From a virus, in IMG/VR virus record IMGVR_UViG_3300032205_000001, positions 108,218 through 172,217 of that record: a DNA stretch of 64,000 bases; one strand, written 5' to 3'. Both the position numbers and the translations under genes were made by a program. The notes under the pieces are model-generated. The model was given only the letters and a program-made list of their open reading frames with translations, had not been told where the DNA came from and ran no database searches. Below, in pieces: positions 5,146 to 16,644 of the stretch (its first letter is position 1; each line of letters begins with the position of its first letter).

Positions 5146-5151
5146 TTACCC

Positions 5152-5180
5152 GGGGTATCAGGTGATGGTCGGATTGTCAA
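5152..5180 (-). promoter_or_regulatory. sigma70-like promoter for the 90-aa gene and RNA ligase
   Basis: TTGACA at 5180-5175, 17-bp spacer, weak -10 TACCCC at 5157-5152. Six bases separate the -10 from ATG 5145. Confidence 0.4.
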
Positions 5181-5182
5181 GA

Positions 5183-5275
5183 TGGAGGAGAGCTGAGGAA
5201 TCGGACCCCAACCGAGTTACTCACCCGGTCCCTTCCGCTTCAAACGGACGCCCGTCCCAGACGGGTTAACTCTCC
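5183..5275 (-). tRNA. tRNA-Ser(TGA)
   Basis: Class II, anticodon loop TTTGAAG, seven-pair variable arm, acceptor GGAGAGT/GCTCTCC, encoded CCA. The discriminator is T73 instead of the serine-typical G73, which is odd. Confidence 0.85.
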
Positions 5276-5300
5276 AAATGCGGCCGAAGCCGCTACAGGC

Positions 5301-5855
5301 TCACTCGTCCTGCTGCTCGGTCAAATCCGAGGTCCAGTACAGGTACGACGCCCAGGCGTCAGGAGCTGACGTCTGGCTGACCTGGATGGTCATCACCGGT
5401 ACCCAGTTCGGCTGCGCCGGCTTCGAAAGCAGACGCATTCCAGCCTGAGCCGGCGTGCGGTCTTTCTTGTCGCGGTTGCAGTCGTAGCAACAGGTGACGA
5501 TGTTGCTCCACTCGGTCTTTCCGCCCTGCGCGCGGGGAGTGACGTGGTCGTACGTCAGATCCGCCATCTTGCCCTTCATGCCACAGTACTGGCAGGTGTA
5601 CTTGTCGCGGGCGAAGATGTTGACACGAGAGAACTTGACCTTCTGCTTGTGGCGCCGGAACGCATTCAGCAGACGGACAACAGCGGGGATCTTGATGACG
5701 AGGCTGACCGACCGGACATCGTGGTCGTACTCCTCGATGACCTCAACCTTTCCCATCGTCAGTAGAGTGATAGCCCTCTGCCAGGAGATGGCCTTGATCG
5801 GCTCATATCCCTGAGAGAGCACAAGAGTTCGCAAATTCGTAGTAGCAGTCGACAC
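5301..5855 (-). CDS. HNH endonuclease, McrA-like
   Basis: 184 residues. Zinc-binding CQYC (about 94-97) and CCYDCN pairs flank the HNH core (YDHVTPRAQGG, then WSNIVTCC with the conserved Asn). This is the common phage form of the family, with an N-terminal domain of about 80 residues (TLLTMGKVEV). Roles in other phages include packaging-linked cleavage and homing; no intron or inserted target is visible around it. ATG 5855 is preceded by AGGAGG-like sequence. Confidence 0.85.
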   Translation of the reverse strand: MSTATTNLRTLVLSQGYEPIKAISWQRAITLLTMGKVEVIEEYDHDVRSVSLVIKIPAVVRLLNAFRRHKQKVKFSRVNIFARDKYTCQYCGMKGKMADLTYDHVTPRAQGGKTEWSNIVTCCYDCNRDKKDRTPAQAGMRLLSKPAQPNWVPVMTIQVSQTSAPDAWASYLYWTSDLTEQQDE

Positions 5856-5915
5856 GAGGGCACCTCCTTTCGTTTGGTTCTATATCTACAATCGTAACAG
5901 ATTTCGTTTTCAGGG

Positions 5916-5998
5916 TGCCCCGGGCGGGAGTCGAACCCGCACGCTTTTTACGGCGCTCGTTTTTGAAACGAGTGTGTCTACCACTCCACCACCAGGGC
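5916..5998 (-). tRNA. tRNA-Leu(CAA)
   Basis: Class II, anticodon loop TTCAAAA, acceptor GCCCTGG/CCGGGGC, A73. Its first base (5998) is also position 73 of the next tRNA-like gene, so the two must be alternative products of one transcript or end trimmed. Confidence 0.9.
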
Positions 5999-6071
5999 GC
6001 ACGCGACCGGAATCGAACCGGCAACCTTCCCGTTGCTTAGGCGGGATGTTCTACCTTTGAACTACGCGAGC
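5998..6071 (-). tRNA. atypical class I tRNA, anticodon uncertain (AAG if loop is 7 nt)
   Basis: Good T arm (GCCGG/CCGGT, TTCGATT) and D arm. The acceptor has one T-T mismatch. Anticodon stem TCCCG/CGGGA encloses nine bases (CCTAAGCAA), or six pairs with a C-A mismatch around CTAAGCA. With U33 kept, the anticodon is AAG with C37; GCA or AGC are alternatives. Identity cannot be fixed. Confidence 0.6.
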
Positions 6072-6079
6072 ATGAGCCG

Positions 6080-6108
6080 ATTAAATCGTCTCTCTATTCG
6101 AATGTCAA
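6080..6108 (-). promoter_or_regulatory. promoter for the atypical tRNA and tRNA-Leu(CAA)
   Basis: TTGACA at 6108-6103, exactly 17 bp, then TTTAAT at 6085-6080; the tRNA 5' end follows at 6071. Confidence 0.55.
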
Positions 6109-6114
6109 AAGAGA

Positions 6115-6196
6115 TGGTGCCGGAATCGGGACTCGAACCACAATTTCTCTCGGCGCCTCACGGCGGCGAGCACATTATCGATATATGCTATCCGGC
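6115..6196 (-). tRNA. degenerate tRNA-like gene
   Basis: Acceptor strands GCCGGAT/TTCCGGC (one mismatch), A73 and encoded CCA are clear and the T-loop is TTCGAGT, but the T stem pairs poorly. The anticodon arm is a four-pair stem around GCCGTGA with no U33. Likely a decaying tRNA or a decoy. Confidence 0.45.
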
Positions 6197-6201
6197 ATTC
6201 G

Positions 6202-6315
6202 TGCGGATGGATGGACTCGAACCACCGACTCCCAAGTTATAAACCTGGTACTCTTCCTGGCGTCCTTGTTCACGTCGATTGCTCTTCGTGGGATCGCTCT
6301 CTGAGTTACATCCGC
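6202..6315 (-). tRNA. tRNA-Ile(TAT) with ~45-nt D-loop insertion
   Basis: Acceptor GCGGATG/CATCCGC, A73, anticodon stem CCAGG/CTTGG with loop TTTATAA, normal T arm. The D stem ACTC/GAGT is intact but encloses about 50 nt instead of 8-10. The extra segment has a small CGT/ACG hairpin and the string GTGAACAAG, also found (as CGAACAAG) in the D-loop insert at 18,513-18,636. Confidence 0.7.
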
Positions 6316-6320
6316 AGATG

Positions 6321-6396
6321 CGGATCGGGCGGGATTTGAACCACACAGTTCCCAGGGCTATTAACCCCGGGTGTTCTACCGTTGAACTACCGATCC
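6321..6396 (-). tRNA. atypical tRNA, anticodon AAT, seven-pair anticodon stem
   Basis: Acceptor GGATCGG/CCGATCC and D arm are normal. The anticodon arm reads CCCGGGG, loop TTAATAG, CCCTGGG: seven pairs rather than five. The T stem is weak although the T-loop is canonical. U33-AAT-A37 would read AUU, with an unusual A34. Confidence 0.55.
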
Positions 6397-6402
6397 ATTT
6401 GG

Positions 6403-6756
6403 TTATTTGATCAGAGGGAAGTTTGACACCTCCTTCTTCACAAGGGATCGGTGGCACGGCACGATGCCGATAGCCATAAGTTGACCATTCCAGGGAGCAT
6501 CGGGCTCTCGGATGGCAACATGAGGAATGTTCTTCTTCTTGAGCTTCTGTTCGAGTCGAAGAAGCTCAAGCTCGCTGCGCGCACCAAGGGCAACCGCTCG
6601 TGTATCAGACGGAAGGTTGCCAGGGCTGCTCTCGCCTGCGGCGTGAATCAGCTGGGCGCAGAGGTCACCGATGGGAGCATCGAGGCGACCAATGCAGTAG
6701 TGGTAGAGGCAATTCTCGACGGAAACGACCGGAGAATCGTCTGGACTTGCAGGCAA
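6403..6756 (-). CDS. peptidyl-tRNA hydrolase II-like protein
   Basis: 117 residues. LYHYCIGRLD, CAQLIHAAGES, TRAVALGARSE and a C-terminal IREPDAPWNGQLMAIGI segment match the PTH2 fold in order. The family releases peptides from stalled peptidyl-tRNA in the cytoplasm, recycling tRNA; this fits the island. No ATG or GTG lies at a suitable place, so TTG 6756 is taken as start, about 57 nt downstream of a good promoter (6841-6813). Confidence 0.7.
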   Translation of the reverse strand: MPASPDDSPVVSVENCLYHYCIGRLDAPIGDLCAQLIHAAGESSPGNLPSDTRAVALGARSELELLRLEQKLKKKNIPHVAIREPDAPWNGQLMAIGIVPCHRSLVKKEVSNFPLIK

Positions 6757-6812
6757 CCACGCCGCCTGCGGGGCACTCGAAGCGTCAAGCTCGGGAAGAC
6801 ATCGTGGAAATG

Positions 6813-6841
6813 ACGATAGGGCCGACCAGGAGACCTGTCAA
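6813..6841 (-). promoter_or_regulatory. promoter upstream of PTH2-like gene
   Basis: TTGACA at 6841-6836, 17-bp spacer, TATCGT at 6818-6813. Confidence 0.5.
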
Positions 6842-6843
6842 CC

Positions 6844-7155
6844 CTACTTCTCGACTTTCACGCAACGGCCGAAAATCGCAGAGGGAGCAACCCAGCCGTT
6901 GATGAATCCCTTGTTGTTGGCGATTTGGAATCGCTTATCGGCGCCGATGGCCCTGATGAGATGGAAGAGCACCTTGCCGTTTACCTTGACGAGTACAACG
7001 TCACCAACGTTGAGTGAGCCGGCATCTGTCACCGGCTCCACGGTGCAGAGGTTCCCGTCATCCACCTTGCCCGTCATTGAATTGCCGCGAGGCCGGAACT
7101 GAACGGTTTCTCCAGCCTTCAGCTTCGCGATATGTCCTGTTGCCCATCCATCCAT
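6844..7155 (-). CDS. S24/LexA-type peptidase-fold protein
   Basis: 103 residues, essentially only the catalytic fold: GNSMTG gives the serine (about residue 26) and VLVKVNGKVLFHLI the region of the lysine partner, followed by a C-terminal RCVKV strand. No N-terminal DNA-binding domain is present, so it is not a full repressor. Stand-alone S24 proteins in phages may cleave themselves or other proteins (UmuD-like). The direct role here is unknown. Confidence 0.65.
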   Translation of the reverse strand: MDGWATGHIAKLKAGETVQFRPRGNSMTGKVDDGNLCTVEPVTDAGSLNVGDVVLVKVNGKVLFHLIRAIGADKRFQIANNKGFINGWVAPSAIFGRCVKVEK

Positions 7156-7172
7156 TGCTTGTACCTACAAAT

Positions 7173-7352
7173 CTAGAAGCAGCAGCTATCACGGTAGTGA
7201 CACTTTGGGCACTTCATATGCGCGTGTTCGGGCACTAACGGGATATTGCAGGTTGGACAGGAGATATCCGGGTCACATGTAGCGCCTAGAAGACGCTCAA
7301 GTTCCGCTACATCCACGAATCTAGGTTCCGCCTTCTTTTTCTCGTCTGTCAT
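7173..7352 (-). CDS. zinc-ribbon protein (59 aa)
   Basis: Starts at ATG 7352; the longer frame runs into tRNA-Leu(GAG). CPTC and CPKC pairs 20 residues apart, then a terminal CC, indicate a zinc ribbon. A Glu/Lys-rich N-terminal helix precedes it. Confidence 0.55.
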   Translation of the reverse strand: MTDEKKKAEPRFVDVAELERLLGATCDPDISCPTCNIPLVPEHAHMKCPKCHYRDSCCF

Positions 7353-7355
7353 TTG

Positions 7356-7438
7356 TGTCACCGACTGGATTCGAACCAGCACGCCTTGCGGCACCAGCAC
7401 CTCAAGCTGGCGAGTCTACCAAGCTCCTCCACGGTGAC
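7356..7438 (-). tRNA. tRNA-Leu(GAG)
   Basis: Class II, anticodon loop TTGAGGT, acceptor GTCACCG/CGGTGAC, A73, no encoded CCA. Confidence 0.9.
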
Positions 7439-7442
7439 GTAA

Positions 7443-8660
7443 CTACTTCTTGTACTTGCCGATGCCGAAATGGTCAGCAAGTGTCTTCTTCACGTCTTCG
7501 AAGATCTCGTTCACGGAGCGGTTCATGTCGAGCGTAACGACGTTCGACATGTCGCCGAACAGCTTCTTGTACTCGACGTCGCAGGCATGCGCGTATTTGA
7601 CGGCACTTTCCTCTGCGCTCTGTGAGTATCCGATGTCCATGCCGGCGGCGTAGTAATTGGGAACGCCCTTGTCTTTCATGATGCGCTCGAACGCCAGCCG
7701 AACTGGTGCGATGCAGTGGAAGATCAGATCGGGCTTCCGCATGCCACTGTAGACGTAGTTCAGAAGCTGCGTGTCTACGCCGCGAACCTTGTCTCGTACG
7801 TACGAGGTGTAGATATAGCGATCTGTGACGACGATGTTGTTCTCCTGCAGAGCAGGAATCACATCGTTTTCGTAGCGAGTGATCATGTCAGCCGCGTGCA
7901 GGATGCTGAACATGACCGGCGTCAGAAGTTTTTTCTTCTTGGCCTTCTTGATCGTCTTGCCGAGCAGCTTTGACGAATTCCACTTGGTGGTGGCGACGTC
8001 GTATCCGTGATCATCTAGCCAGTCGACGAGATGCTCCGTTTGAGTCGTCTTGCCCACGCCATCCACGCCCTCAAATACGATGAAGAGTCCTTTGTCGGTT
8101 TTCGTCTTGGCGTTGAGGATGTCGTTGACCTGGTCGTCGATGATATCTTCGACGAGGGCGCCTGGTGCCCGCATGATTGCTTCAACCGTCTTGTGGTGGG
8201 CGAAAGCGAAGCTCGCAGCATGGTGAATGCGGGCGTTGTCCTGGAAGGCCATGTGCGGCAACTTGCCAATGGAGCACCACTTCGCCTCGGCGGCGTCAGA
8301 TCCGGCCTTTGCTTCCGCGTTCGGCTTAACCTTGGCCCAGAACGTCACCCCTGATTTGTTGTGTCCGAATTCCGGGTATCCTGGATTCCACGGGGCAAGA
8401 AGGTGCAGCTCCTTTAGGTGAAGGCCGGTTTCTTCTTTGGCTTCCCTGCGAGCGCCATCTTCAACGGTCTCGTATTGCTCGACATGACCGCCGGGTAGAG
8501 CCCACCAGCCCTTGAACGGGGCGCCGCCACGTTTGGTGATCAATACTTCGATGCCGTTCTGAGGGTCTTCGCGGAAGATGGCCACGCAAGCAAGGACGCC
8601 AGTATCATTGGACGTCATCTCGCGAAGCTCGTCGCAAACCCGTCTCAACGACGTAAGCAT
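7443..8660 (-). CDS. NUDIX hydrolase fused to thymidylate kinase
   Basis: 405 residues. The N-terminal third carries a full Nudix box (GHVEQYE...REAKEETG), expected to hydrolyse nucleoside diphosphate-linked compounds. From about residue 190 a dTMP-kinase-like domain follows: P-loop FEGVDGVGKTT, a DRY motif (VTDRYIYTS) and a later LID region. The fusion suggests nucleotide-pool cleaning and dTMP phosphorylation in one polypeptide. An internal ATG (8618) could be the true start, removing 14 residues. The next gene starts 3 nt upstream of this one (8663 stop), so they form an operon. Confidence 0.85.
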   Translation of the reverse strand: MLTSLRRVCDELREMTSNDTGVLACVAIFREDPQNGIEVLITKRGGAPFKGWWALPGGHVEQYETVEDGARREAKEETGLHLKELHLLAPWNPGYPEFGHNKSGVTFWAKVKPNAEAKAGSDAAEAKWCSIGKLPHMAFQDNARIHHAASFAFAHHKTVEAIMRAPGALVEDIIDDQVNDILNAKTKTDKGLFIVFEGVDGVGKTTQTEHLVDWLDDHGYDVATTKWNSSKLLGKTIKKAKKKKLLTPVMFSILHAADMITRYENDVIPALQENNIVVTDRYIYTSYVRDKVRGVDTQLLNYVYSGMRKPDLIFHCIAPVRLAFERIMKDKGVPNYYAAGMDIGYSQSAEESAVKYAHACDVEYKKLFGDMSNVVTLDMNRSVNEIFEDVKKTLADHFGIGKYKK

Positions 8661-8662
8661 GA

Positions 8663-8872
8663 TCAGTCCGAGTAGCCCTTAACGCCACGGCGCGGGATGT
8701 TCACATCGTCAGGGGCTTTGGTCTTCAGCTGCTTCTTGCCTTGCTGACGGAGGTAGCGGGTAGCTCCGCGTTTGGCTTCCTTGCTGGCACCGGGGCTGCG
8801 CTGAAACGCAGCACGCAAGGAGCCGCGCATCAAAGCCTCGGTGCGAATGTCTTCGATCAGCTGCTTGAACAT
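8663..8872 (-). CDS. small basic hypothetical protein
   Basis: 69 residues, rich in Arg and Lys with no Cys. It overlaps the upstream 84-aa gene by a single base and precedes the Nudix-kinase gene, so it is part of that operon. Function unknown. Confidence 0.55.
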   Translation of the reverse strand: MFKQLIEDIRTEALMRGSLRAAFQRSPGASKEAKRGATRYLRQQGKKQLKTKAPDDVNIPRRGVKGYSD

Positions 8873-9126
8873 TAGCGTCGACCTCTCTCATACCAGTCGC
8901 TGCACATTTCATCGAGCGGCCAGCTGGGAAGTTTATGGCTGCCGCCATTCCAGCGAGCGTAGTGAGGAGACCCGCAGGAATGCTCCTTTACGTTCACGAA
9001 ACGGCAGTTGGCGCAGGAAGATCCACCTTTTGGAACCCTCAGCAACGCCTTATGGTCGGACGGGAATGTCTCCGCGTTAGTCTCGCTAAGCACGCGACGA
9101 GATTCGTGGATGATCCATCCGAACAC
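8872..9126 (-). CDS. Cys-rich hypothetical protein (84 aa)
   Basis: GTG start at 9126. CANC, a later C and a final C suggest a metal or Fe-S site; several Trp. The promoter TTGACA-N17-TAGTGT ends six bases before the start and there is no ribosome site, so the mRNA is probably leaderless. First gene of the 9,126-7,443 operon. Confidence 0.6.
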   Translation of the reverse strand: MFGWIIHESRRVLSETNAETFPSDHKALLRVPKGGSSCANCRFVNVKEHSCGSPHYARWNGGSHKLPSWPLDEMCSDWYERGRR

Positions 9127-9132
9127 CTCGCT

Positions 9133-9161
9133 ACACTATTCCAACAGATCCGTGCTGTCAA
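9133..9161 (-). promoter_or_regulatory. promoter for the 9,126-7,443 operon
   Basis: TTGACA at 9161-9156, 17 bp, TAGTGT at 9138-9133, then six bases to the GTG start. Confidence 0.55.
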
Positions 9162-9182
9162 ACCTCAGCAAACACACGGTTT

Positions 9183-9260
9183 TGGTACCGACGAGGGGAT
9201 TCGAACCCCTACTGCTCAGATCCTAAGTCTGACGCCTCCTACCAGTTGGGCTACGTCGGC
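9183..9260 (-). tRNA. class I tRNA with anticodon TAG
   Basis: Acceptor GCCGACG/CGTCGGT, anticodon loop CTTAGGA, A73, encoded CCA. The anticodon reads CUA (Leu) but the variable loop is only five bases, whereas leucine tRNAs are normally class II. Confidence 0.85.
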
Positions 9261-9268
9261 AAAATCTT

Positions 9269-9345
9269 TGGTACCCCCGGCCGGAGTCGAACCGGCACTG
9301 GACCAGGCTTAAACTGGATGTCTCCTACCGTTGGACTACGAGGGC
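9269..9345 (-). tRNA. class I tRNA with anticodon TAA
   Basis: Anticodon loop TTTAAGC, acceptor GCCCTCG/CGGGGGT, A73, encoded CCA, five-base variable loop. Leu-type anticodon again in a class I body. Its 5' end overlaps the last codons of the next small gene. Confidence 0.8.
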
Positions 9346-9530
9346 AAACACAACTCTAGCGGGACCTTTTGCACGATAATGGTGTTGCCGCACCGAAAGA
9401 AGTAGGTTCTTCCATCGTGGGAATCGGCGTCTGCAAGCGCTTGCGCGGCTGCCGAAGATGGCCCCAGGATTCTGGCCGTTGCCTCTAACACGTCCCTTGA
9501 GACCTTCGTCAGCTTCTTGCGTACTGCCAT
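9336..9530 (-). CDS. small hypothetical protein (64 aa)
   Basis: Basic N-terminus, helical centre and a short beta-like tail. Stop overlaps the tRNA(TAA) acceptor by about 10 nt. It abuts the gene upstream (stop of that gene at 9531). A dispersed-palindrome copy (TGCAAGCGCTTGCG) lies inside it. Function unknown. Confidence 0.5.
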   Translation of the reverse strand: MAVRKKLTKVSRDVLEATARILGPSSAAAQALADADSHDGRTYFFRCGNTIIVQKVPLELCLPS

Positions 9531-9800
9531 TTAGTTCACCGGAGCTGTGTTGAACCCCATCTGGATGAGCGCGTTGCGCAGGTTGCGGAAGTTGGGGTTC
9601 GCACTGTTGACGGTTGATGCCGCCAACTCGATGTATCCAACCAGGGATTCATTGTCGAGTTCGTCGATGCGGGCTCCGGTGAAGAGAACGGCATCATGGA
9701 GCAGGCTGTAGCAATGACGCTTTTGGTCGTCACGCTTGCACTGACGCTGAAGGTCAGCCATCTGAGCCTGCATCCGCTTGACCTTATCTTGAATCGACAT
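9531..9800 (-). CDS. hypothetical helical protein (89 aa)
   Basis: N-terminal amphipathic helix with Gln and Lys (KVKRMQAQMADLQRQ), likely coiled coil, then a mixed region. Immediately upstream of the 64-aa gene. No family recognised. Confidence 0.55.
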   Translation of the reverse strand: MSIQDKVKRMQAQMADLQRQCKRDDQKRHCYSLLHDAVLFTGARIDELDNESLVGYIELAASTVNSANPNFRNLRNALIQMGFNTAPVN

Positions 9801-9802
9801 CT

Positions 9803-9878
9803 TGGTACCCCCGGCAGGGATTGAACCTGCGACATCCGGCTTGTAAAACCAGCGCTACTTCCACTGAGCTACAGGGGC
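9803..9878 (-). tRNA. tRNA-Val(TAC)
   Basis: Anticodon loop TTTACAA, acceptor GCCCCTG/CGGGGGT, A73, encoded CCA. Confidence 0.9.
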
Positions 9879-9911
9879 AAGGTCCGTCATTTTCATCAAG
9901 TGACCAACTTT

Positions 9912-10751
9912 TTAGATGGGCGCCCGCAGCACATCGCGGACATCGTAGCTGAGGCTGTTCCACCACTCCAGCTCCGCCTTGGTGAGCTTCTTGTAGTACC
10001 GCCACACACCGAAGACACGATGCTCGGTGGAGTAGGTGCGCCACCAACCATTGTCTCCGAGGGAGCGGAATCCCGGCGAGCTGTACTTCTCGACGAGAGC
10101 AGCCGGCGTGGTCTCGACACGGCGGTGGAGGTCGTGGGAGATGTGGCAGCGACCACGGATGGCCTTGCAGGTATCCCAACGATCGACGTCATCGTGGAGC
10201 GCCCAGGCGTGGGGCTTCCAGCCGCTGTCGATCACCTTCCGGTCACGAGCAAAGGCGAGAGCCTGCGCCAGGGACGGACCGCTGTATCCGCTCTGCCATA
10301 CACGACGGTAGCGCTTGCCACGGTCCTGCAGCAGTCCCTCATCGTCGATGAAGAAGCGCTGGCTGCGGTAGTGCGCCAGAGCATCGCTCGTCGTGCCAGC
10401 ACCCTCCACCTCGGTCAGCATGTGCTGATTGACGATGTGCCAGGCGCTGAGCTTGCGAGTATCGAACGTCCCCGCGAGCTTGCTGCGGACATCATCCCAG
10501 CGCTCGCCGCAGTGGCTAGCAAGCCAGCCGTAGCAGGGACCGAGATTGTCCGTGAAGCCCTTGTGGACCTTGTTGCGAGGCTCCGGGTCGGAATCCTCGG
10601 CGGCGTCGATGTCGAAACGCACGTTATCGAGCCAGACCTTGGTCCGGCTGCGCTCGTGACGGTGCGACTCGTTGCGCTCGTCTTTGTTGTGCTTATAGCG
10701 TCCGCCCTCGACGGCGGACCTCGAAATATCCTTGGTTGCCATGTACGTCAC
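9912..10751 (-). CDS. hypothetical protein (279 aa)
   Basis: Trp-, His- and Arg-rich soluble protein; an internal ATG at residue 4 is an alternative start. No motif recognised. A similarly long frame on the opposite strand is judged a shadow because the flanking genes and promoters read leftward. Its ATG lies about 100 nt downstream of the SRP-like RNA. Confidence 0.65.
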   Translation of the reverse strand: MTYMATKDISRSAVEGGRYKHNKDERNESHRHERSRTKVWLDNVRFDIDAAEDSDPEPRNKVHKGFTDNLGPCYGWLASHCGERWDDVRSKLAGTFDTRKLSAWHIVNQHMLTEVEGAGTTSDALAHYRSQRFFIDDEGLLQDRGKRYRRVWQSGYSGPSLAQALAFARDRKVIDSGWKPHAWALHDDVDRWDTCKAIRGRCHISHDLHRRVETTPAALVEKYSSPGFRSLGDNGWWRTYSTEHRVFGVWRYYKKLTKAELEWWNSLSYDVRDVLRAPI

Positions 10752-10844
10752 TCCTGGAAATGCACTGCAAGTTCGCTAACTTACATGTGATTTCAGTAGT
10801 GCCGCGCATTGGTGTTTCCTTGGACTTTCGGTTGGTTTCTACGA

Positions 10845-10896
10845 GAGAGGCTTGCTTACCGTTGCTCCCTTCCGGGCCTGGCGGGGTTCACAAGTT
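10845..10896 (-). ncRNA. SRP (4.5S) RNA domain IV-like RNA
   Basis: Reading leftward from about 10896, CTTG (10894-10891) pairs with CAAG (10854-10851). Inside are GTGAAC, a CCG/CGG helix, the symmetric loop strands CAGG and AGCA, and CCC-GGAA-GGG with the GGAA tetraloop. This is the diagnostic 4.5S core CAGGnCCGGAAGGnAGCA in the correct order, the site bound by Ffh. The Alu-like and long stem parts are missing, so it is a minimal ~50-nt form. A TTGACA-N17-TAGGGT promoter is placed so that transcription starts at the first stem, which argues for a dedicated transcript. No Ffh gene is visible here. Confidence 0.85.
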
Positions 10897-10902
10897 GAAT
10901 GC

Positions 10903-10931
10903 ACCCTAATGGACGAGCGGCGCATTGTCAA
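10903..10931 (-). promoter_or_regulatory. promoter of the SRP-like RNA
   Basis: TTGACA at 10931-10926, 17 bp, TAGGGT at 10908-10903; the RNA's first helix begins about 8 nt downstream. Confidence 0.6.
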
Positions 10932-10938
10932 GAATTAG

Positions 10939-11067
10939 TCTGGCAGTGAAGAGTCGAACTTCTGTTTGATAACCGTTTCCGGTCGGTTCGCGAACGAACA
11001 AAGAAGTGGTCACGGAGCGCTACAGGCTTGCGCCTGCACCCTAGGGCCCTCCTAGGGAAGCTGCCAG
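10939..11067 (-). ncRNA. tRNA-like RNA carrying an anticodon-arm-type insert
   Basis: Seven-pair acceptor CTGGCAG/CTGCCAG, A73 and a T arm with loop TTCGACT. The D and anticodon region is replaced by two strong hairpins (CCCTAGG/CCTAGGG and CAGGC-GCAA-GCCTG) followed by a copy of the GAACCG/GGTTATC motif. Not a normal tRNA; amino-acid identity unclear. Confidence 0.4.
10968..11005 (-). repeat. insert motif copy 1 (inside tRNA-like RNA)
   Basis: Leftward: TTTGTTCG, UUCG-type loop, CGAACCG, spacer, GGTTATC. Same signature as the four tRNA-interrupting copies. Confidence 0.6.
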
Positions 11068-11069
11068 AT

Positions 11070-11202
11070 TGGTCGACAGGGTCGGGAATTGAACCCAACT
11101 ACCACCAGTCCCTTGGTAACCATAAATCTACGGTTCACCGAAGCGAACAAAGAGCGATCCACGGCGTTTTTTACTGGTGCTCTACCGTTGAGCTACCTGT
11201 CG
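11070..11202 (-). tRNA. interrupted tRNA (insert in anticodon arm), identity uncertain
   Basis: Acceptor CGACAGG/CCTGTCG, A73, encoded CCA, D arm GCTC/GAGC, T arm with six pairs. Anticodon stem CCAGT/ACTGG is complete but encloses about 70 nt, of which 58 (11172-11115) form the insert. What remains of the loop on the 3' side is AAGGG, so exact junctions and anticodon are unresolved. Confidence 0.6.
11115..11172 (-). repeat. insert motif copy 2, 58 nt, in tRNA anticodon arm
   Basis: Begins AAAAAACGCCGT, then TTTGTTCGC-UUCG-type hairpin, GAACCG, and ends GGTTACC. Same length and layout as copies 3 and 4. Confidence 0.65.
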
Positions 11203-11203
11203 G

Positions 11204-11274
11204 TCCCCCACGGAAGAGTCGAACTTCCGTCCTTCGCTTATCAAGCAACCGCTCTGCCATTGAGCTAGTGGGGG
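11204..11274 (-). tRNA. tRNA-Ile(GAT), copy 1
   Basis: Anticodon loop TTGATAA, acceptor CCCCCAC/GTGGGGG, A73, no CCA. Only one base separates it from the interrupted tRNA. Confidence 0.85.
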
Positions 11275-11330
11275 TTGTTACAGATCTTTGTGCGTTTGTT
11301 CCAGATCCAGATCGGGGATAGCCTTTGATC

Positions 11331-11489
11331 ATGCTGATCGCAATCTGGCCACTCGTCATCGCCGTCATTGGCGCCCTTGTGTACGCGCTTGCGAGTAACT
11401 CGAAAGCGGCTGAACTTGGCCGCCTCGTGTTCTTCTGCGGGTTCTTCTGGCTGGTGTACAGCCTCGTTGGACACACGCTGAAGATGTGA
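11331..11489 (+). CDS. two-span small membrane protein, holin-like
   Basis: 52 residues, rightward, inside the leftward tRNA cluster. Two hydrophobic spans (about residues 2-20 and 30-47) are joined by a short polar loop (ASNSKAAELGR). Size and topology fit class II holins or similar small phage membrane proteins, but no endolysin gene lies beside it, so the lysis role is unproven. GGGGAT about 11 nt upstream could serve as ribosome site. Confidence 0.6.
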   Translation: MLIAIWPLVIAVIGALVYALASNSKAAELGRLVFFCGFFWLVYSLVGHTLKM

Positions 11490-11492
11490 TCG

Positions 11493-11565
11493 TAGGACTG
11501 GCTGGATTTGAACCAGCTACCCCGCGCTTATCAAGCACGTGCTCTACCAAGTGAGCTACAGTCCC
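11493..11565 (-). tRNA. tRNA-Ile(GAT), copy 2
   Basis: Anticodon loop TTGATAA, acceptor GGGACTG/CAGTCCT, A73, no CCA. Body differs from copy 1, so not a recent duplication. Confidence 0.9.
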
Positions 11566-11575
11566 AAACTGAAAG

Positions 11576-11659
11576 TGCCGGTGACAGGGGTCGAACCTGC
11601 CTGGCCTTGCGGCCACTGCGCCCTGAACGCAGCGTGTCTACCAAATCCACCACACCGGC
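11576..11659 (-). tRNA. tRNA-Leu(CAG)
   Basis: Class II, anticodon loop TTCAGGG, acceptor GCCGGTG/CACCGGC, A73. Confidence 0.92.
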
Positions 11660-12070
11660 AAAAGGGAAGTCCGTGAGTGTGCTGCTACGCCAAATGCTCT
11701 AAGGGCTGTTTCGGCCGTCGGGGCTCTCGCACTTCTGCGTTCGCACTGCTTCCCCTCAGACCCGCATTTCCTCTCGTACTGCGCGGGCAAAGCCGATCCG
11801 TGCTACCTGACTGTTTGGTCACGAGCGCCGAAGCTGTTGGAGGAAACTTACCCGTTTGACCGGGGTTAGAAATGCCAACGTGCTGCAACGCCGTCTAGTC
11901 TTCGCGTCCCTGTGGTTATACTCCGGTCGAGCAGTCTATCCCTCGGTCGTACTATTGACCTTTGTTGGGGACCGGAAAAGCTTGATTTCGCCTGCGCCGG
12001 GCTACTTTCTACCACTCGCAACTCTTCAAAGGATTGCTGCTTCTAAGCCAACCTCCTCATCGTCCTTCCG
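11660..12070 (-). ncRNA. 23S rRNA-like RNA with GTPase-centre and sarcin-ricin elements
   Basis: Fills the gap between tRNA-Leu(CAG) and tRNA-Pro(TGG). Near its 5' end, GTTGGCTTAGAAGCAGC (12052-12036) matches by memory the L11-binding, GTPase-associated centre of 23S rRNA (around E. coli 1055-1075), and what follows (CCTTTGAAGAG, a purine-rich hairpin) continues the resemblance. Further on CGGGTAAGT (11854-11846) resembles helix 71. At 11787-11761 a CCCGC/GCGGG hairpin presents AGTACGAGAGGA, the universal sarcin-ricin loop core. GGAAG and CTTCC near the two ends could pair. There is no full rRNA, so this is a composite mini-LSU RNA or mimic. It presents the two rRNA elements that contact translational GTPases. 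Confidence 0.8.
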
Positions 12071-12144
12071 TCGGGGTGGTGAGACTCGAACTCACGAATT
12101 CCCTGGTCCCAAACCAGGTGTCCTGGCCGCTAGACTACACCCCG
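12071..12144 (-). tRNA. tRNA-Pro(TGG)
   Basis: Anticodon loop TTTGGGA, acceptor CGGGGTG/CACCCCG, A73. Confidence 0.92.
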
Positions 12145-12150
12145 TAAACA

Positions 12151-12525
12151 CTAACCGAACCTGTTGCTGCCGAACGGCGCTATCATGCATCGTACGCCAG
12201 CATCGTCAAGAATTCCTGCCATCCTTCGACGACCAGCATCGTTAAATGAGTGCAGGACAACGAACTTTGGCCGCATCTCTTCCGGCAAGGTGGCGATGAA
12301 TTCAGCCACGTGTGTGCCGGTCTTCTCGTCGGATGCTGGACGACCAGCCGCAGCTAGCTCGGACAGGTCGTGGTCAAGGTACGCGAGATCGAACTTGGTC
12401 TTGGCAAGAGCCGCGCAAGCATCTGCGTAGTTCATGACCGCTGTGATGTCCATGCCGATGCGATCCATCTTGAACTTCTTGTGGCGCTCAGCGTCGTCGT
12501 CTAGGAAGAAAATTTTCTGGTTCAT
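12151..12525 (-). CDS. receiver-like protein, cyclic-phosphate-processing (cREC) type
   Basis: 124 residues. IFFLDDDAERH near the N-terminus, YLDHDLSE at about 50, then a glycine/threonine segment and FVVLHSFND fit a small receiver-like fold with extra acidic and His residues. This matches my recollection of the cREC family proposed by comparative genomics to process 2',3'-cyclic phosphates in RNA repair. With the RNA ligase in the same island this suggests end healing and sealing of cut tRNA. The assignment needs a profile search. Confidence 0.6.
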   Translation of the reverse strand: MNQKIFFLDDDAERHKKFKMDRIGMDITAVMNYADACAALAKTKFDLAYLDHDLSELAAAGRPASDEKTGTHVAEFIATLPEEMRPKFVVLHSFNDAGRRRMAGILDDAGVRCMIAPFGSNRFG

Positions 12526-12533
12526 ATGATCTT

Positions 12534-12668
12534 TGGTTGGACAGGTCGGGCTCGAACCGACAACACTCCGCGTTCTAGGCGATAACCATTCCTCGGTCGG
12601 TTCACTTGCGTGAACAAGGAATTGAAAAACGGCGTTTTAGAGGCCTCTACCAATTGGGCTACTGTCCA
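12534..12668 (-). tRNA. interrupted tRNA, anticodon AGA if insert is removed
   Basis: Acceptor TGGACAG/CTGTCCA, A73, encoded CCA, good D and T arms. Removing 58 nt (12638-12581) leaves stem TCTGC/GCGGA and loop CTAGAAC, U33-AGA-A37. The insert would then lie between positions 29 and 30, inside the anticodon stem. Body is class I although AGA is a serine-type anticodon. Confidence 0.65.
12581..12638 (-). repeat. insert motif copy 3, 58 nt, in tRNA anticodon stem
   Basis: AAAACGCCGT..., lower helix ATTCC/GGAAT, TT, GTTCAC-GCAA-GTGAAC hairpin with GNRA loop, CCGA, and terminal GGTTATC. Confidence 0.7.
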
Positions 12669-12678
12669 AAAAGTTTCG

Positions 12679-12808
12679 TTGCGCAACCAGGACTCGAACC
12701 TGGAACATCCCGCTTAATAGGCGATAACCATCTCTCGATCGGTTCGGTTGCCCGAACAATGTGGTGAAAAACGGTGTTTTAGGCGCTCTACCCTTGAGCT
12801 ATTGCGCA
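12679..12808 (-). tRNA. interrupted tRNA, anticodon ATT if insert is removed
   Basis: Acceptor TGCGCAA/TTGCGCA, A73, no CCA. Removing 58 nt (12780-12723) gives stem CCTGC/GCGGG and loop CTATTAA, U33-ATT-A37 (reads AAU). Insert position is the same as in the preceding gene. A34 is unusual in bacteria. Confidence 0.65.
12723..12780 (-). repeat. insert motif copy 4, 58 nt, in tRNA anticodon stem
   Basis: AAAACACCGT..., TTGTTCGG-GCAA-CCGAACCG hairpin with GNRA loop, then GGTTATC. Length equal to copies 2 and 3 though the sequence differs. Confidence 0.7.
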
Positions 12809-12819
12809 GTAACAGATCG

Positions 12820-12946
12820 AGCGGCGAGGAGGAATTGGACCTCCACTTTCTCCTTGCATGGGATAACCATCCTCAGGCGGTTCGGTTGCCCGAACAAGAT
12901 GGCGAAGACGGAGATTTTAGACGTGCTACCGTTACACTATCGCCGC
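12820..12946 (-). tRNA. interrupted tRNA, probably Cys(GCA)
   Basis: Acceptor GCGGCGA/TCGCCGC and T73, a discriminator used by Cys and Gly. Removing 57 nt leaves stem TCTCC/GGAGA around ATGCAA; GCA with a U before it gives Cys, but the loop is one base short or U33 is lost. Confidence 0.55.
12862..12918 (-). repeat. insert motif copy 5, 57 nt, in tRNA anticodon stem
   Basis: AAAATCTCCGTC..., lower helix CCATC/GATGG, TT, GTTCGG-GCAA-CCGAAC hairpin, terminal GGTTATC. Its TCTCC can also pair with the 3' exon GGAGA, an alternative to the exon-exon stem. Confidence 0.65.
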
Positions 12947-12948
12947 AG

Positions 12949-13021
12949 TGGGAGCGGAGGGATTTGAGCCCTAACACCGAACGGCTTATGAGACCGTCGT
13001 CCTGACCCGCAGGTCGCTCCC
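12949..13021 (-). tRNA. tRNA-Met(CAT), elongator type (or Ile2)
   Basis: Anticodon loop CTCATAA, fully paired acceptor GGGAGCG/CGCTCCC, A73. The stem lacks the GGG/CCC of initiator tRNA. T-loop is CTCAAAT. Confidence 0.85.
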
Positions 13022-13022
13022 G

Positions 13023-13217
13023 TTATACAAGGCCGTGCTTTTCAGCCAGCCACAGTGGAATCACTAGGGTGCCCTCCGTGTCTTCCTTGTAGACCTCGGA
13101 GTCGTCGTCGATCTGAGACTTAGGAAGCCAGACCTCCTCGCCTTCGATCTCCACGAGGAGGGCCTTCTCGGTCTCACGAAGTGCCTTTGCGTTCTGGATT
13201 TGGACTGTTTCCGCCAT
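13023..13217 (-). CDS. conserved small phage protein (64 aa)
   Basis: Acidic beta-rich protein with EVWLPKSQIDDDSEVY and a C-terminal IPLWLAEKHGL. I recall similar short proteins in many phages, without function. Strong promoter TTGACA-N17-TATCGA lies just upstream with a leader of only a few bases. Confidence 0.65.
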   Translation of the reverse strand: MAETVQIQNAKALRETEKALLVEIEGEEVWLPKSQIDDDSEVYKEDTEGTLVIPLWLAEKHGLV

Positions 13218-13228
13218 CCGAGGAACCC

Positions 13229-13257
13229 TCGATACTTGGACGGGAAACCATTGTCAA
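13229..13257 (-). promoter_or_regulatory. promoter for the 64-aa gene and downstream tRNAs
   Basis: TTGACA at 13257-13252, 17 bp, TATCGA at 13234-13229. Confidence 0.5.
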
Positions 13258-13303
13258 GAACCGTCGGTTGCTGGATCTACCGAACTTGTAGTATTCATGG
13301 GAC

Positions 13304-13852
13304 ATGTTCAGGCCACTGATCGACGCTTTCCGTGCCGAGCTTCAGGAAGACGAGACGTCCACCGATCGCCCAGAGCCAGAAGGCGAAAAGAAGGCTGCTC
13401 CAGATGCTGAAGCCTCGCCGAAGCGGAGCAAGCACGACCGCGCCTCCGATCGGATGGGCTTCATCCTGAGCACTCCGCTTGCGAACATGTCCCGCAAGAA
13501 GATGATGAAGATGATCCCGCATCTGATGCATCACTTCACGAAGGGTCACGGCAAGCCAGGCGAAGATGGCAGCGTTGACCGGGATGACCTGTCCACGCTG
13601 AGTCGTCATGCGAAGCACATCTCCGACCAGGCCAACGGCATTCGTCGTATGCCTGGAGCGGCTCACCACCTCGCTGGTCACCTCACGCGGCACGTTGCTG
13701 ACTGCCACGATCGTATGGCCAAGACGATGAAGATGGCCGACATGCCAGAAGAGGCCGACCTTCACGCGAACGAGGGTGGCAAGTTCCGTGCGCTATCGAA
13801 GCACCACAAGATGACCGCTCGCCGTCACGGCATCTACGACGAGAGCTACTAG
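13304..13852 (+). CDS. hypothetical His/Met-rich protein (182 aa)
   Basis: Rightward gene, ATG 13304, with TAGTAT nine bases before the start as a possible -10. Acidic linker (about 15-40), then a region with many His, Lys and Met. No motif recognised. Its stop overlaps the stop of the convergent leftward gene (13849-13852). Confidence 0.65.
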   Translation: MFRPLIDAFRAELQEDETSTDRPEPEGEKKAAPDAEASPKRSKHDRASDRMGFILSTPLANMSRKKMMKMIPHLMHHFTKGHGKPGEDGSVDRDDLSTLSRHAKHISDQANGIRRMPGAAHHLAGHLTRHVADCHDRMAKTMKMADMPEEADLHANEGGKFRALSKHHKMTARRHGIYDESY

Positions 13853-14088
13853 AAACGATCCCAGGGCGGCATGTGCGGCGAACGCTGCACGTGATCCCTC
13901 CAGCCAGTGGCGCCAGGCACGAACGAACCAAGGTACGGCTGCCAGTGTGGCTTGACTCGATGAACCTCATCGCGAGCGTTCTCGAAGTCTAGCTTGCCGT
14001 CTACGTAGTCGACGTAGAGGAAGATCGTGTCCTTGACCTCTCCGCAGCCCTGGTAAACGTTCAGCAGTGTCAGCTTCCTCGTGCGCAT
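13849..14088 (-). CDS. hypothetical protein (79 aa)
   Basis: ATG 14088 with AAAGGA upstream; the longer frame enters the neighbouring tRNA. Alpha/beta look, Trp- and Pro-rich C-terminus. Function unknown. Confidence 0.55.
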   Translation of the reverse strand: MRTRKLTLLNVYQGCGEVKDTIFLYVDYVDGKLDFENARDEVHRVKPHWQPYLGSFVPGATGWRDHVQRSPHMPPWDRF

Positions 14089-14102
14089 GTCGTCCTTTCT
14101 AG

Positions 14103-14173
14103 TCCACCACGCTGGACTTGAACCAGCAACCAACCGCTTATAGGGCAGCCGCTCTACATTGAGCTAGTGGTGG
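14103..14173 (-). tRNA. class I tRNA, anticodon TAT with C33 (or ATA)
   Basis: Acceptor CCACCAC/GTGGTGG, A73. Stem GCTGC/GCGGT encloses CCTATAA: position 33 is C, not the near-universal U. Sliding by one would give U33-ATA. Confidence 0.7.
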
Positions 14174-14174
14174 A

Positions 14175-14244
14175 TGGCAGGCTGTGAGGGAATCGAACCC
14201 CCCTTCCCGGCTTTGGAGACCAGGACCGTCCCAGACGACAACCT
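14175..14244 (-). tRNA. tRNA-Trp(CCA)
   Basis: Anticodon loop CTCCAAA, acceptor AGGTTGT/ACAGCCT, G73 and encoded CCA, like bacterial tRNA-Trp. Confidence 0.88.
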
Positions 14245-14249
14245 AAGAG

Positions 14250-14321
14250 CGCATCTACGAGGACTTGAACCTCGGTTTCAGCTTTCGGAGAGCTGTGTCC
14301 TATCCACTGGACGATAGATGC
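14250..14321 (-). tRNA. tRNA-Arg(CCG)
   Basis: Anticodon loop CTCCGAA, acceptor GCATCTA/TAGATGC, G73. Confidence 0.9.
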
Positions 14322-14322
14322 A

Positions 14323-14397
14323 TGGTACCCCTACCAGGACTCTAACCCGGATCTGCCGGTCCGTAGCCGACCGCTCTTTACATTGAGCTATAGGGGC
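14323..14397 (-). tRNA. tRNA-Arg(ACG), copy 1
   Basis: Anticodon loop CTACGGA, acceptor GCCCCTA/TAGGGGT, A73, encoded CCA. T-loop TTAGAGT is slightly off consensus. A34 here is the normal inosine case. Confidence 0.88.
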
Positions 14398-14398
14398 A

Positions 14399-14474
14399 TG
14401 GTGACTCCAAGAGGACTCGAACCTCTAACTTCCTGTTCCGTAGACAGGCGCTCTATCCATTGAGCTATGGAGCC
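14399..14474 (-). tRNA. tRNA-Arg(ACG), copy 2
   Basis: Anticodon loop CTACGGA, acceptor GGCTCCA/TGGAGTC, A73, encoded CCA. Body differs from copy 1. Confidence 0.92.
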
Positions 14475-14489
14475 AAGAAACGATCGGCT

Positions 14490-14800
14490 CTACGGTGAAC
14501 CGGAGCCGAGATGCTTAATGTACGCTGCCAGCCGGGCGACGACTTCATCAGCTTGGGGGTAGCTGATGTCGCGTAGGACTTGCTCGATGGTGGACAGAAT
14601 TTTGGTGTCTGGCCAGCCGCATCCACGAGCATCCTTGTAGAACGAGACCCAACAAGGGATCAAATCGTTCCGCCGGAGAAACTCGAAGACGATCTCAAGC
14701 GGTATCCCGCGAGAATTGTATGCGGCGAACACGTTGCCCACCACGTACCTTCCGTCTCTGGTCTCTCCTATGTAGAAAAGCTTTCGGCGTCCCGCGACAT
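14490..14800 (-). CDS. hypothetical protein with apparent frameshift near 14,778
   Basis: The long frame (84 aa from GTG 14744) continues upstream in good coding form (RKLFYIGETRDGRY) but has no start codon before an in-frame stop. In another frame ATG 14800, with GGAGGT at ideal spacing, reads 10 codons to TAG. Switching at the TTTT run (14779-14776) joins them into one protein. Either a programmed shift or a one-base sequence error. Function unknown. Confidence 0.5.
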
Positions 14801-14919
14801 TTCGTACCTCCGTTGTGAATGAGTTAAGTACGCGTTGCCCGACTTACGCGGCAGGGTAGCCACCGCGCACCATACCTGGCTGCACCATTAAGATTATCTT
14901 GAGTGGAACACGTACCTAG

Positions 14920-14993
14920 AGCCCGCACCCAGAGTCGAACTGGGCCATCCTGCTTACCAAGCAGGCGTGCCGAACCGCGATCACTTTACGGGC
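14920..14993 (-). tRNA. tRNA-Thr(GGT)
   Basis: Anticodon loop TTGGTAA, acceptor GCCCGTA/TGCGGGC, T73 (threonine tRNAs usually have A73), large D-loop. Confidence 0.85.
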
Positions 14994-14997
14994 ATGC

Positions 14998-15203
14998 TGC
15001 TTCTGGTCGGATTTGAACCGACGTCTCTCGATTCGTCATGCGTCGCATGTAGTCGACCGATTGATCAGACCGGCCTCCTTGAAGGTGATCTGCCTCCGTG
15101 CGACTTACCCGGTCAGCTCAGCCGTAAGAGACGATCTATCCCTCCGTGCTGTGCCGATGAGCTGCTGCTTGATCGAGCGCCTTAACCACTAGGCTACAGG
15201 AGC
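14998..15203 (-). tRNA. tRNA with ~135-nt insertion in the anticodon loop
   Basis: Acceptor GCTCCTG/CAGAAGC (one mismatch), A73, D arm GCC/GGC, T arm GTCGG/CCGAC with TTCAAAT. Anticodon stem CTCGA/TCGAG is perfect but encloses about 140 nt; the 3' side of the loop reads GACGAA, hinting at ACG. The insert is too short for a normal group I intron. It shares GAGGGATAGA and CGGGTAAGT, in the same order, with the 23S-like RNA. Confidence 0.55.
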
Positions 15204-15358
15204 AAAAGTTTGATTCTCCCAGTTTGTGCTCGTGACTAGACCTTTCCGTCGGGCCCTGCTGACGCTCCACATTACTGGGCGTCCGTCCGAGTTACTGGTT
15301 GGTATCTCATCGGCTGGTTCTAGAAGGGCCGACTTTGACCTCCAGACGAATCACTCCG
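15204..15358 (-). other. unassigned 155-nt structured spacer
   Basis: No gene or tRNA found. Reading leftward it contains GACGGAAAGG and several short complementary blocks, similar in feel to rRNA-derived sequence. May be another small RNA. Confidence 0.25.
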
Positions 15359-15431
15359 TACACGAGCTGGGACTCGAACCCAGGATATTCGGCATGTGAA
15401 GCCGACGTTCTTGCCGCTGAACTACTCGTGC
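15359..15431 (-). tRNA. tRNA-Val(CAC)
   Basis: Anticodon loop TTCACAT, acceptor GCACGAG/CTCGTGT, A73. Confidence 0.9.
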
Positions 15432-15436
15432 GTGAC

Positions 15437-15542
15437 GTGAACAAGGTGTGCATCTTGGAGATCAGCAACCACCGTTTAGAAGCGGCAGCGCATGACAGTC
15501 GGGTTATTAACCTGATTTGGTAACCAATCTGCGTCGGTTCAC
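15437..15542 (-). repeat. intergenic permuted motif copy 6
   Basis: Leftward: GTGAACCG, spacer, TTGGTTACC, a long central segment, CCAAG, then CTTGTTCAC. Outer helix GTGAAC/GTTCAC and inner TTGG/CCAA; order is a circular permutation of copies 1-5. Confidence 0.55.
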
Positions 15543-15546
15543 TTCG

Positions 15547-15618
15547 TGCGCGATACTGGAATCGAACCAGTGATCTCTTGCATGTCAAGCAAGCGTTCTG
15601 CCGCTGAACTAATCGCGC
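15547..15618 (-). tRNA. tRNA-Val(GAC)
   Basis: Anticodon loop TTGACAT, acceptor GCGCGAT/ATCGCGC, A73. Confidence 0.92.
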
Positions 15619-15621
15619 ATA

Positions 15622-15680
15622 GACGAACAAGTGGGTGCTCGTGGGTGATTTACAAGATAACCCATGGGCTTCGGTTCGTC
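15622..15680 (-). repeat. intergenic permuted motif copy 7
   Basis: Outer helix GACGAAC/GTTCGTC, inner ATGGGT/ACCCAC; conserved GAACCG, GGGTTATC, CCACGAGCAC and CTTGTTCG. Closest relative of copy 9. Confidence 0.65.
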
Positions 15681-15802
15681 GAAAATCTGTGCCTTTGACT
15701 CCAGGAAAAATCCGGTTATATTTGATCCGATGATCTGAGACCAGTGTATCGGTCTCATTGATGCCCGACCTCTGGAGTGATGGTGGGCGGCTGGCGCTTT
15801 GA
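15681..15802 (-). other. spacer with hairpins, no gene found
   Basis: GAGACC/GGTCTC and CTCCAG/CTGGAG inverted repeats suggest a folded transcript between copy 7 and tRNA-Glu(TTC). No ORF or tRNA is supported. Confidence 0.25.
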
Positions 15803-15878
15803 TGGTGACCCTGGTGGGAATCGAACCCAACATTTCCGGGGTGAAAAGCCGGTTGCTTAGCCATTGGCAGACAGGGCC
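15803..15878 (-). tRNA. tRNA-Glu(TTC)
   Basis: Anticodon TTC in loop TTTTCAC, acceptor GGCCCTG/CAGGGTC, A73, encoded CCA; C31-C39 mismatch. Confidence 0.85.
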
Positions 15879-15882
15879 ATGT

Positions 15883-16071
15883 ATGAAGAAGGAAGATCTA
15901 GTTCGCTGGTTGAAAGTTTACGGAGACCACAAGGACAGCTGTGGAATTACCCAGGTGATCAGAGATCACCGGGCGAAAACCGACTCGGAGGGCAGAAAAA
16001 TCTACCCAGAATGCAGCTGCGGCTGGACTGAGATCAGCCGGTCGCTGGACAAACTATTCAAGCTGAATTGA
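15883..16071 (+). CDS. hypothetical protein (62 aa)
   Basis: ATG 15883; upstream codons belong to the facing tRNA-Glu. One CSC-type Cys group and an N-terminal amphipathic helix (KKEDLVRWLKVYGD). Its stop ends at the discriminator of the facing tRNA-Cys. Function unknown. Confidence 0.5.
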   Translation: MKKEDLVRWLKVYGDHKDSCGITQVIRDHRAKTDSEGRKIYPECSCGWTEISRSLDKLFKLN

Positions 16072-16140
16072 GCACGCCGAGGGAGTCGAACCCACTACTT
16101 ACAGGGTTGCAATCTGTAGCCTGGCCGCCAGGTGACGTGC
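16071..16140 (-). tRNA. tRNA-Cys(GCA) with nine-base loop
   Basis: Acceptor GCACGTC/GGCGTGC, T73. Stem TACAG/CTGTA encloses ATTGCAACC, two bases more than normal. Confidence 0.75.
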
Positions 16141-16148
16141 AAAGCCCA

Positions 16149-16210
16149 CGAACAAAGAGATGAACCTTGGGGTGATCATTAACAGTGATAACCAAAGCTC
16201 GAACGGTTCG
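16149..16210 (-). repeat. intergenic permuted motif copy 8a
   Basis: CGAACCG, spacer, TTTGGTTATC ... CCCAAGG ... TTTGTTCG; outer CGAAC/GTTCG and inner TTGG/CCAA helices. Confidence 0.6.
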
Positions 16211-16221
16211 CGGAAAAAATT

Positions 16222-16286
16222 GAACGAACAAGTTGGTTGCTCCAAGGAGTCACATGTTAGGTAACCTTGGTGCGATCGGTTCGCTC
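16222..16286 (-). repeat. intergenic permuted motif copy 8b
   Basis: GAGCGAACCG, spacer, CCAAGGTTACC ... CCTTGG ... CTTGTTCG. Inner helix CCAAGG/CCTTGG is perfect. Tandem with copy 8a. Confidence 0.6.
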
Positions 16287-16324
16287 GAAAAGTTCGGTGA
16301 GCAAGAATTTGTGACTGGTTAGGT

Positions 16325-16399
16325 TGGTCGGGAGGCGGATTTCAACCGCTACCTCCGGGGGTTCTAGCCCCGGCGCTCTAGCAATTAAGCTACCCCGGC
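16325..16399 (-). tRNA. degenerate tRNA, anticodon AGA, six-pair anticodon stem
   Basis: Stem CCGGGG/CCCCGG around CTAGAAC, the same loop as in the interrupted tRNA at 12,534. A73 and CCA encoded, but the acceptor pairs only over about five bases. T-loop TTGAAAT. Possible decoy. Confidence 0.55.
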
Positions 16400-16424
16400 G
16401 GTAATCCAATCACGACGGCTCACC

Positions 16425-16501
16425 TGGCATCGCTACAGGGATTCGAACCCTGGTTTCCGCGCTGAGAACGCAGCGTACTCGGCCGACTGTACGATAGCGA
16501 C
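16425..16501 (-). tRNA. tRNA-Glu(CTC), copy 1
   Basis: Anticodon loop TTCTCAG, acceptor GTCGCTA/TAGCGAT, G73 as expected for Glu, encoded CCA. Confidence 0.88.
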
Positions 16502-16507
16502 AAAATA

Positions 16508-16566
16508 GCGAACAAGTTTGTGCTCGTGGGGTACATTTGGCAGATAACCCACATGCTTCGGTTCGC
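16508..16566 (-). repeat. intergenic permuted motif copy 9
   Basis: Outer GCGAAC/GTTCGC, then AAGCAT, GTGGGTTATC ... CCCCACGAGCAC ... CTTGTTCG; inner GTGGG/CCCAC. Very similar to copy 7. Confidence 0.65.
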
Positions 16567-16567
16567 A

Positions 16568-16644
16568 TGGTGACCCTACTGGGATTTGAACCCGAGATTT
16601 CAGCCTTGAGAGGGCCGCGTCCTAAACCGTTGGACGATAGGGCC
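16568..16644 (-). tRNA. tRNA-Glu(CTC), copy 2
   Basis: Anticodon loop CTCTCAA, acceptor GGCCCTA/TAGGGTC, A73, encoded CCA. Confidence 0.82.

Follow-up and report, generated by a model that had tools for sequence, protein, structure and literature searches.

A domain IV fragment of SRP RNA suffices for binding of Ffh, and the known cargo of large phages includes tRNAs, tmRNA, and some ribosomal proteins. In the SRP of E. coli, the tetraloop of the RNA is the contact for the receptor (FtsY) and a distal RNA site triggers GTP hydrolysis (PMC4737761); the Xanthomonas phage XacN1 has 56 tRNAs (PMC5852040). The locus described here lies in a 64,000-nt stretch (the window) of the IMG/VR virus record IMGVR_UViG_3300032205_000001. 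It shares with bacterial 4.5S RNA (RF00169) the CAGG/AGCA loop, the GGAA tetraloop, the lower helix, and the AAC of the asymmetric loop, but it is devoid of the 5′ and 3′ arms and of the distal GTPase-docking site, is phage-borne, and is located in a tRNA array behind a putative promoter of its own. With phage tRNA arrays and tmRNA, such as those of XacN1, it has in common that translation RNAs are clustered on a phage genome; unlike these, the product would serve protein targeting and not decoding. The other close counterparts are SRP RNA genes near tRNA genes on very large phage contigs (L003/L011, 497 and 372 kb, with a terminase match; L012, 290 kb, in which none was found), but those match model positions 1 to 97 with ~58 bits and are nearly full length, whereas the copy in the window is restricted to domain IV. 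No description of a phage-encoded SRP RNA was found in the literature searched, which included few subscription journals, and the main text of "Clades of huge phages" has no mention of SRP. Domain IV of SRP RNA is a known kind of element, and its phage-borne minimal form appears to be new.

The Rfam covariance model for bacterial small SRP RNA (RF00169, Bacteria_small_SRP) matched the minus strand with 40.7 bits (E = 1.9e-8), just above the gathering score of 40 bits and as the single match in the whole virus record of 175,284 bases. The match covers model positions 24 to 66 of 97, that is, only the Ffh-binding domain IV hairpin, in the alignment CUUGUG-AAC-CCCGC-CAGG-CCC-GGAA-GGG-AGCA-ACGGU-A-AGCAAG (Table 1). 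A preliminary description, made from the letters and without a strand, had claimed a complete and ordered domain IV signature and had named the Rfam model as the check; all the elements it named are indeed present, on the minus strand, with the lower helix, the symmetric loop, and the GNRA tetraloop of the family, and the model places the copy above its cut-off. A plus-strand reading was rejected, as it has no family match and an unrelated fold. The copy does not extend to a full hairpin of ~100 nt, which would include a terminal closing helix and the distal site. CUUGU/GCAAG is the outermost pairing, with no further pairing outside domain IV in the window folds, and the distal arms are therefore missing, as had been stated.

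Folding of the predicted 48-nt transcript gave all three helices, and the domain IV structure (−12.8 kcal/mol) differs from the minimum (−13.1 kcal/mol) by no more than 0.3 kcal/mol. The outer helix is short and no stabler than in shuffles, and the folding energy of this transcript is no better than that of shuffled sequences (z = −0.23); the case for a gene therefore rests on comparison. The minimal hairpins of other phages fold alone exactly as domain IV, most of them with z of about −2.4 to −3.7. The pair adjoining the symmetric loop is C-A in the window, which is common to many phage copies, with U-G as the usual alternative.

Table 1. Features of the SRP RNA locus and its surroundings (window coordinates)
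Feature	Position	Strand	Basis or remark
tRNA array holding the SRP gene, ~50 genes	319..21401	minus	47 ARAGORN genes plus interrupted ones
RF-1-domain peptide release factor-like gene, same tRNA array	3385..4065	minus	phrog_20323 / phrog_3122, E 4e-10 / 1e-8
Downstream gene, 279-aa soluble protein, no assigned function	9912..10751	minus	syntenic in L019
Predicted SRP transcript, ~48 nt	~10849-10896	minus	
Minimal SRP RNA, domain IV only	10851..10894	minus	RF00169 match; 40-nt block in L019; covariation in 15 phage sequences
Closing helix, 3′ strand GCAAG	10851..10855	minus	pairs with CUUGU; in predicted fold
Symmetric loop, 3′ strand AGCA	10863..10866	minus	Rfam alignment; AGCA in phage copies (AGCA belonged to the search pattern that found them)
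Apical stem CCC, partner GGG	10876-10874, 10869-10867	minus	
GGAA tetraloop	10870..10873	minus	Rfam alignment; GGAA or GAAA in phage copies
Symmetric loop, 5′ strand CAGG	10877..10880	minus	Rfam alignment; CAG(G/A) in phage copies
Closing helix, 5′ strand CUUGU	10890..10894	minus	pairs with GCAAG 10851-10855; in predicted fold
Putative −10 box TAGGGT	10903..10908	minus	kept in L019; start placed at ~10895-10896
Putative −35 box TTGACA	10926..10931	minus	exact match; kept in L019
tRNA genes with anticodon-loop insert	12537-12668, 12677-12806, 12819-12945, 11076-11204; also 10939-11069	minus	
Opened/permuted insert motif (apparent)	15655-15685, 16090-16330, 16542-16572, 16688-16718, 16786-16816	minus	

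The preliminary description had also proposed a promoter that starts transcription at the closing helix, with TTGACA and TAGGGT separated by 17 nt. TAGGGT agrees with the sigma-70 −10 consensus (TATAAT) at only 3 of 6 positions, and because of this poor match a generic promoter scan made no call. Nevertheless, both boxes are unchanged in L019, a diverged relative (a 194-kb contig with a portal 88% identical), despite a 17-nt spacer that is identical at only 9 of 17 positions, which supports the promoter. In both genomes, the transcription start would be placed at the base of the closing helix. When as many as two mismatches are allowed, TTGACA-N17-TAGGGT occurs 13 times in the window (2.5 expected).

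The record is that of a myovirus-like phage with a T4-type portal, terminase, UvsX, DnaB, primase, and ParB-like genes, and L019 and L024 are syntenic with it. With these hallmark genes on the same contig as the SRP gene, contamination by host DNA was rejected for the window. Within the window, NUDIX and thymidylate kinase domains are joined in a single open frame on the minus strand (7443-8660). A structured insert of ~55 to 65 nt (motif CUAAAA..CCGU ... UUGUUCG-loop-CGAACCG ... GGUUAYC) interrupts the anticodon loop of at least four tRNA genes of the window, and the tRNA arms covary around it. The exact insert pattern has six matches in G000 and six in the near-identical G009, with none in 20 other phage records and in reversed controls, and the insert is covered by no Rfam family; possibly, it represents a new small tRNA intron family. 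A diverged insert is found directly upstream of the SRP gene in L019, and what appear to be opened or permuted versions of the motif (CGAACCG...GGUUAYC...UUGUUCG) occur in spacers of the tRNA array.

Closer inspection of the relatives revealed different degrees of conservation. L024 is nearly identical to the window record. In L019, a 40-nt SRP block is 100% identical, compared to 70 of 140 flanking columns (50%), and the closing helix reads CCUGU/GCAGG in place of CUUGU/GCAAG, a compensatory change from U-A to C-G. L123/L124 (portal 56% identical) have the variant CAGA-CCC-GAAA-GGG-AGCA (23.7 bits) between tRNA-Gln and tRNA-Trp, and the hairpin of L213, with stems that are changed yet paired, is also located between these two tRNA genes. 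No credible SRP copy was detected in G025, G026, and G036, which have 36 to 46 tRNA genes, even in a search with filters off. Relatives with a tRNA array and no hairpin thus exist, and the SRP gene is therefore accessory and dispensable. Letter for letter, the 40-nt core is also present in 11 bacterial MAG contigs from several phyla, so that neither donor nor host can be named from the SRP sequence.

Two pattern scans of IMG/VR, followed by a paired-flank test to part chance matches from hairpins, uncovered the hairpin in at least 15 or so other large phage records among the matches listed, mostly in tRNA arrays. tRNA-rich records with the hairpin are L003/L011, L006/L007 (38 tRNAs plus tmRNA), L013 (436 kb, with tmRNA), L019, L023, L030 (183 kb, with tmRNA), L034, L123/L124, L162, L200, and L213; in L012, L016 (417 kb), and L029, one or two tRNA genes are nearby. 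Among the matches listed, 82 of the 111 counted did not pass this test and resemble chance or coding matches, and four or more tRNA genes were present at 10 of the 29 loci that passed, compared to 1 of the 82 that failed (Fisher p = 3.5e-6). The single tRNA-rich locus that failed, L184, may itself represent a hairpin, interrupted by a C-C mismatch. Among the loci that passed but have no tRNAs are ordinary full-length genes of the host type, located on prophage or host DNA. Within 19 hairpin-bearing records, tmRNA was above the cut-off in 8 and a terminase match was obtained in 8, so that some of the smaller records are phage by their IMG/VR class and tRNA array only.

In an alignment of 15 phage sequences, the six named pairs are standard throughout (100% of cells paired), and four of the six have changes on both sides. 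The covariation score was 0.76, compared to 0.14 in shuffles, none of which (0 of 500) reached the observed value, and slid controls did not exceed 0.13; since the search pattern fixed the core letters, the information comes from the lower helix and the first apical pair alone. The asymmetric loop is also missing from several other phage hairpins (L013, L016, and L006). In L029 (237-290), six T residues directly follow the minimal SRP hairpin, which may double as an intrinsic terminator.

Named phages gave no further examples: the phage hairpin model had no credible match in XacN1 and seven other named phage records (one match of 20.9 bits lies inside a tail gene), and BLAST of the window hairpin and eight others against 50,697 phage records returned, besides mislabelled Acinetobacter DNA, chance-level matches that were nearly all in coding genes (e.g., H142). 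The record CAKLQF020000006.1 ("Acinetobacter phage MD-2021a"; L037) is bacterial chromosome at the site of its SRP RNA match (yaeT-lpxD-fabZ-lpxA, ybgF, recA).

Taken together, the covariance-model match, the phage context, the promoter boxes conserved in L019, the missing arms, and the finding of the hairpin in further large phages support the initial claim of a phage-encoded minimal SRP RNA with a putative promoter of its own. As to its partners, Ffh or FtsY (SRP54 family; PF02978, PF00448) was found in none of 16 hairpin-bearing records, several of which are fragments, so that absence is not absolute, and in all of 14 control genomes; an SRP that is self-sufficient by its own Ffh or FtsY was thus not seen in the 16 records, and the RNA must therefore act on host proteins. 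In the best reading, which we consider probable, the phage supplies a minimal SRP RNA that would load host Ffh, most likely to sustain membrane targeting while translation is run by the phage. In this model, the TTGACA-N17-TAGGGT promoter, as judged from sequence and conservation, would transcribe the RNA from the closing helix; the RNA would fold into the Ffh-binding hairpin and be loaded by host Ffh; and the hybrid SRP would bind signal sequences, and FtsY via the GNRA tetraloop. Alongside the tRNAs and the release factor, to which other phages add tmRNA, it would form part of a translation kit that sustains cotranslational membrane targeting as host RNA synthesis declines. Most likely, its role in this kit would be to provide the infected cell with an RNA that loads Ffh. 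Points that count against this reading are the score barely above the Rfam cut-off, the short outer helix, the lack of a copy in relatives with large tRNA arrays, the missing distal site, and the missing asymmetric loop of several other phage hairpins.

The main rival, which we regard as unlikely, is that of a decoy or dominant negative: the short RNA would occupy host Ffh and FtsY without GTP hydrolysis and jam targeting, for host shut-off or for the exclusion of competing phages. Consistent with this, the RNA in the window keeps the parts that bind Ffh and FtsY and is devoid of the distal GTPase-activation site (for the role of the distal site, see PMC4737761), and the putative promoter has a perfect −35 box. 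However, the near-full-length SRP RNAs of L003/L011 and L012 fit supply better than jamming, as does the placement among tRNAs and tmRNA. Under the supply model, a particle without the distal site at which the GTPases dock for activation would be expected to turn over slowly, so that partial inhibition of host targeting is also possible. The hairpin could instead be a 5′-leader element that recruits Ffh to the mRNA of the downstream gene, since it lies ~100 to 140 nt upstream on the same strand, as it does in L019, and a search of the interval gave no terminator on the minus strand. This is very improbable: the product is soluble (no membrane segment; GRAVY −0.89, best 19-residue hydropathy 0.17), and in other phages the hairpin is located between tRNA genes and not in front of this gene. 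The product is 60% identical in L119/L019 and had no match in PHROG and Pfam searches.

The preliminary description had suggested that the copy could compete for Ffh, redirect secretion, or bind EF-G; the lack of an Ffh or FtsY match in the phage records favors host Ffh as the partner, and nothing in the analysis independently backs EF-G. It is also imaginable that the RNA acts on the ribosome or EF-G rather than on Ffh. The GGAAGGNAGCA stretch, proposed as the EF-G-binding motif of 4.5S RNA, is kept, and the neighbors are translation genes; but the phage copies also retain the whole Ffh-binding symmetric loop with its adjoining C-A/U-G wobble, as well as the GNRA loop, which is more than the EF-G motif alone would need, and we give this explanation very little weight. 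Just as remote is the idea that the locus has no function and is either the decaying remainder of a 4.5S RNA gene once taken from a host or host DNA that entered the assembly. The Rfam score just at the cut-off, the lost arms, and the absence from some relatives would fit a relic, and public records do contain host DNA under a phage label (the Acinetobacter DNA of H21), but the 40 nt that are fully identical in L019, together with the compensatory change and the conserved promoter boxes, argue against this explanation, as do the phage genes that share the contig and the finding of the hairpin in other phages.

In sum, the recurrence of the core in other large, tRNA-rich viruses suggests that such viruses tap the protein-delivery machinery of the host. 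More tentatively, and with more doubt than confidence, we envisage SRP RNAs restricted to domain IV as recurrent, independently acquired members of large-phage translation kits that would reprogram or throttle host SRP via a particle that binds cargo and FtsY without a distal GTPase-activating site. The phage hairpins represent natural minimal SRP RNAs (~30 to 50 nt) that lend themselves to tests of which parts Ffh loading, FtsY engagement, and GTPase activation require. A phage RNA for cotranslational membrane targeting would extend the takeover of the host from decoding to protein delivery.
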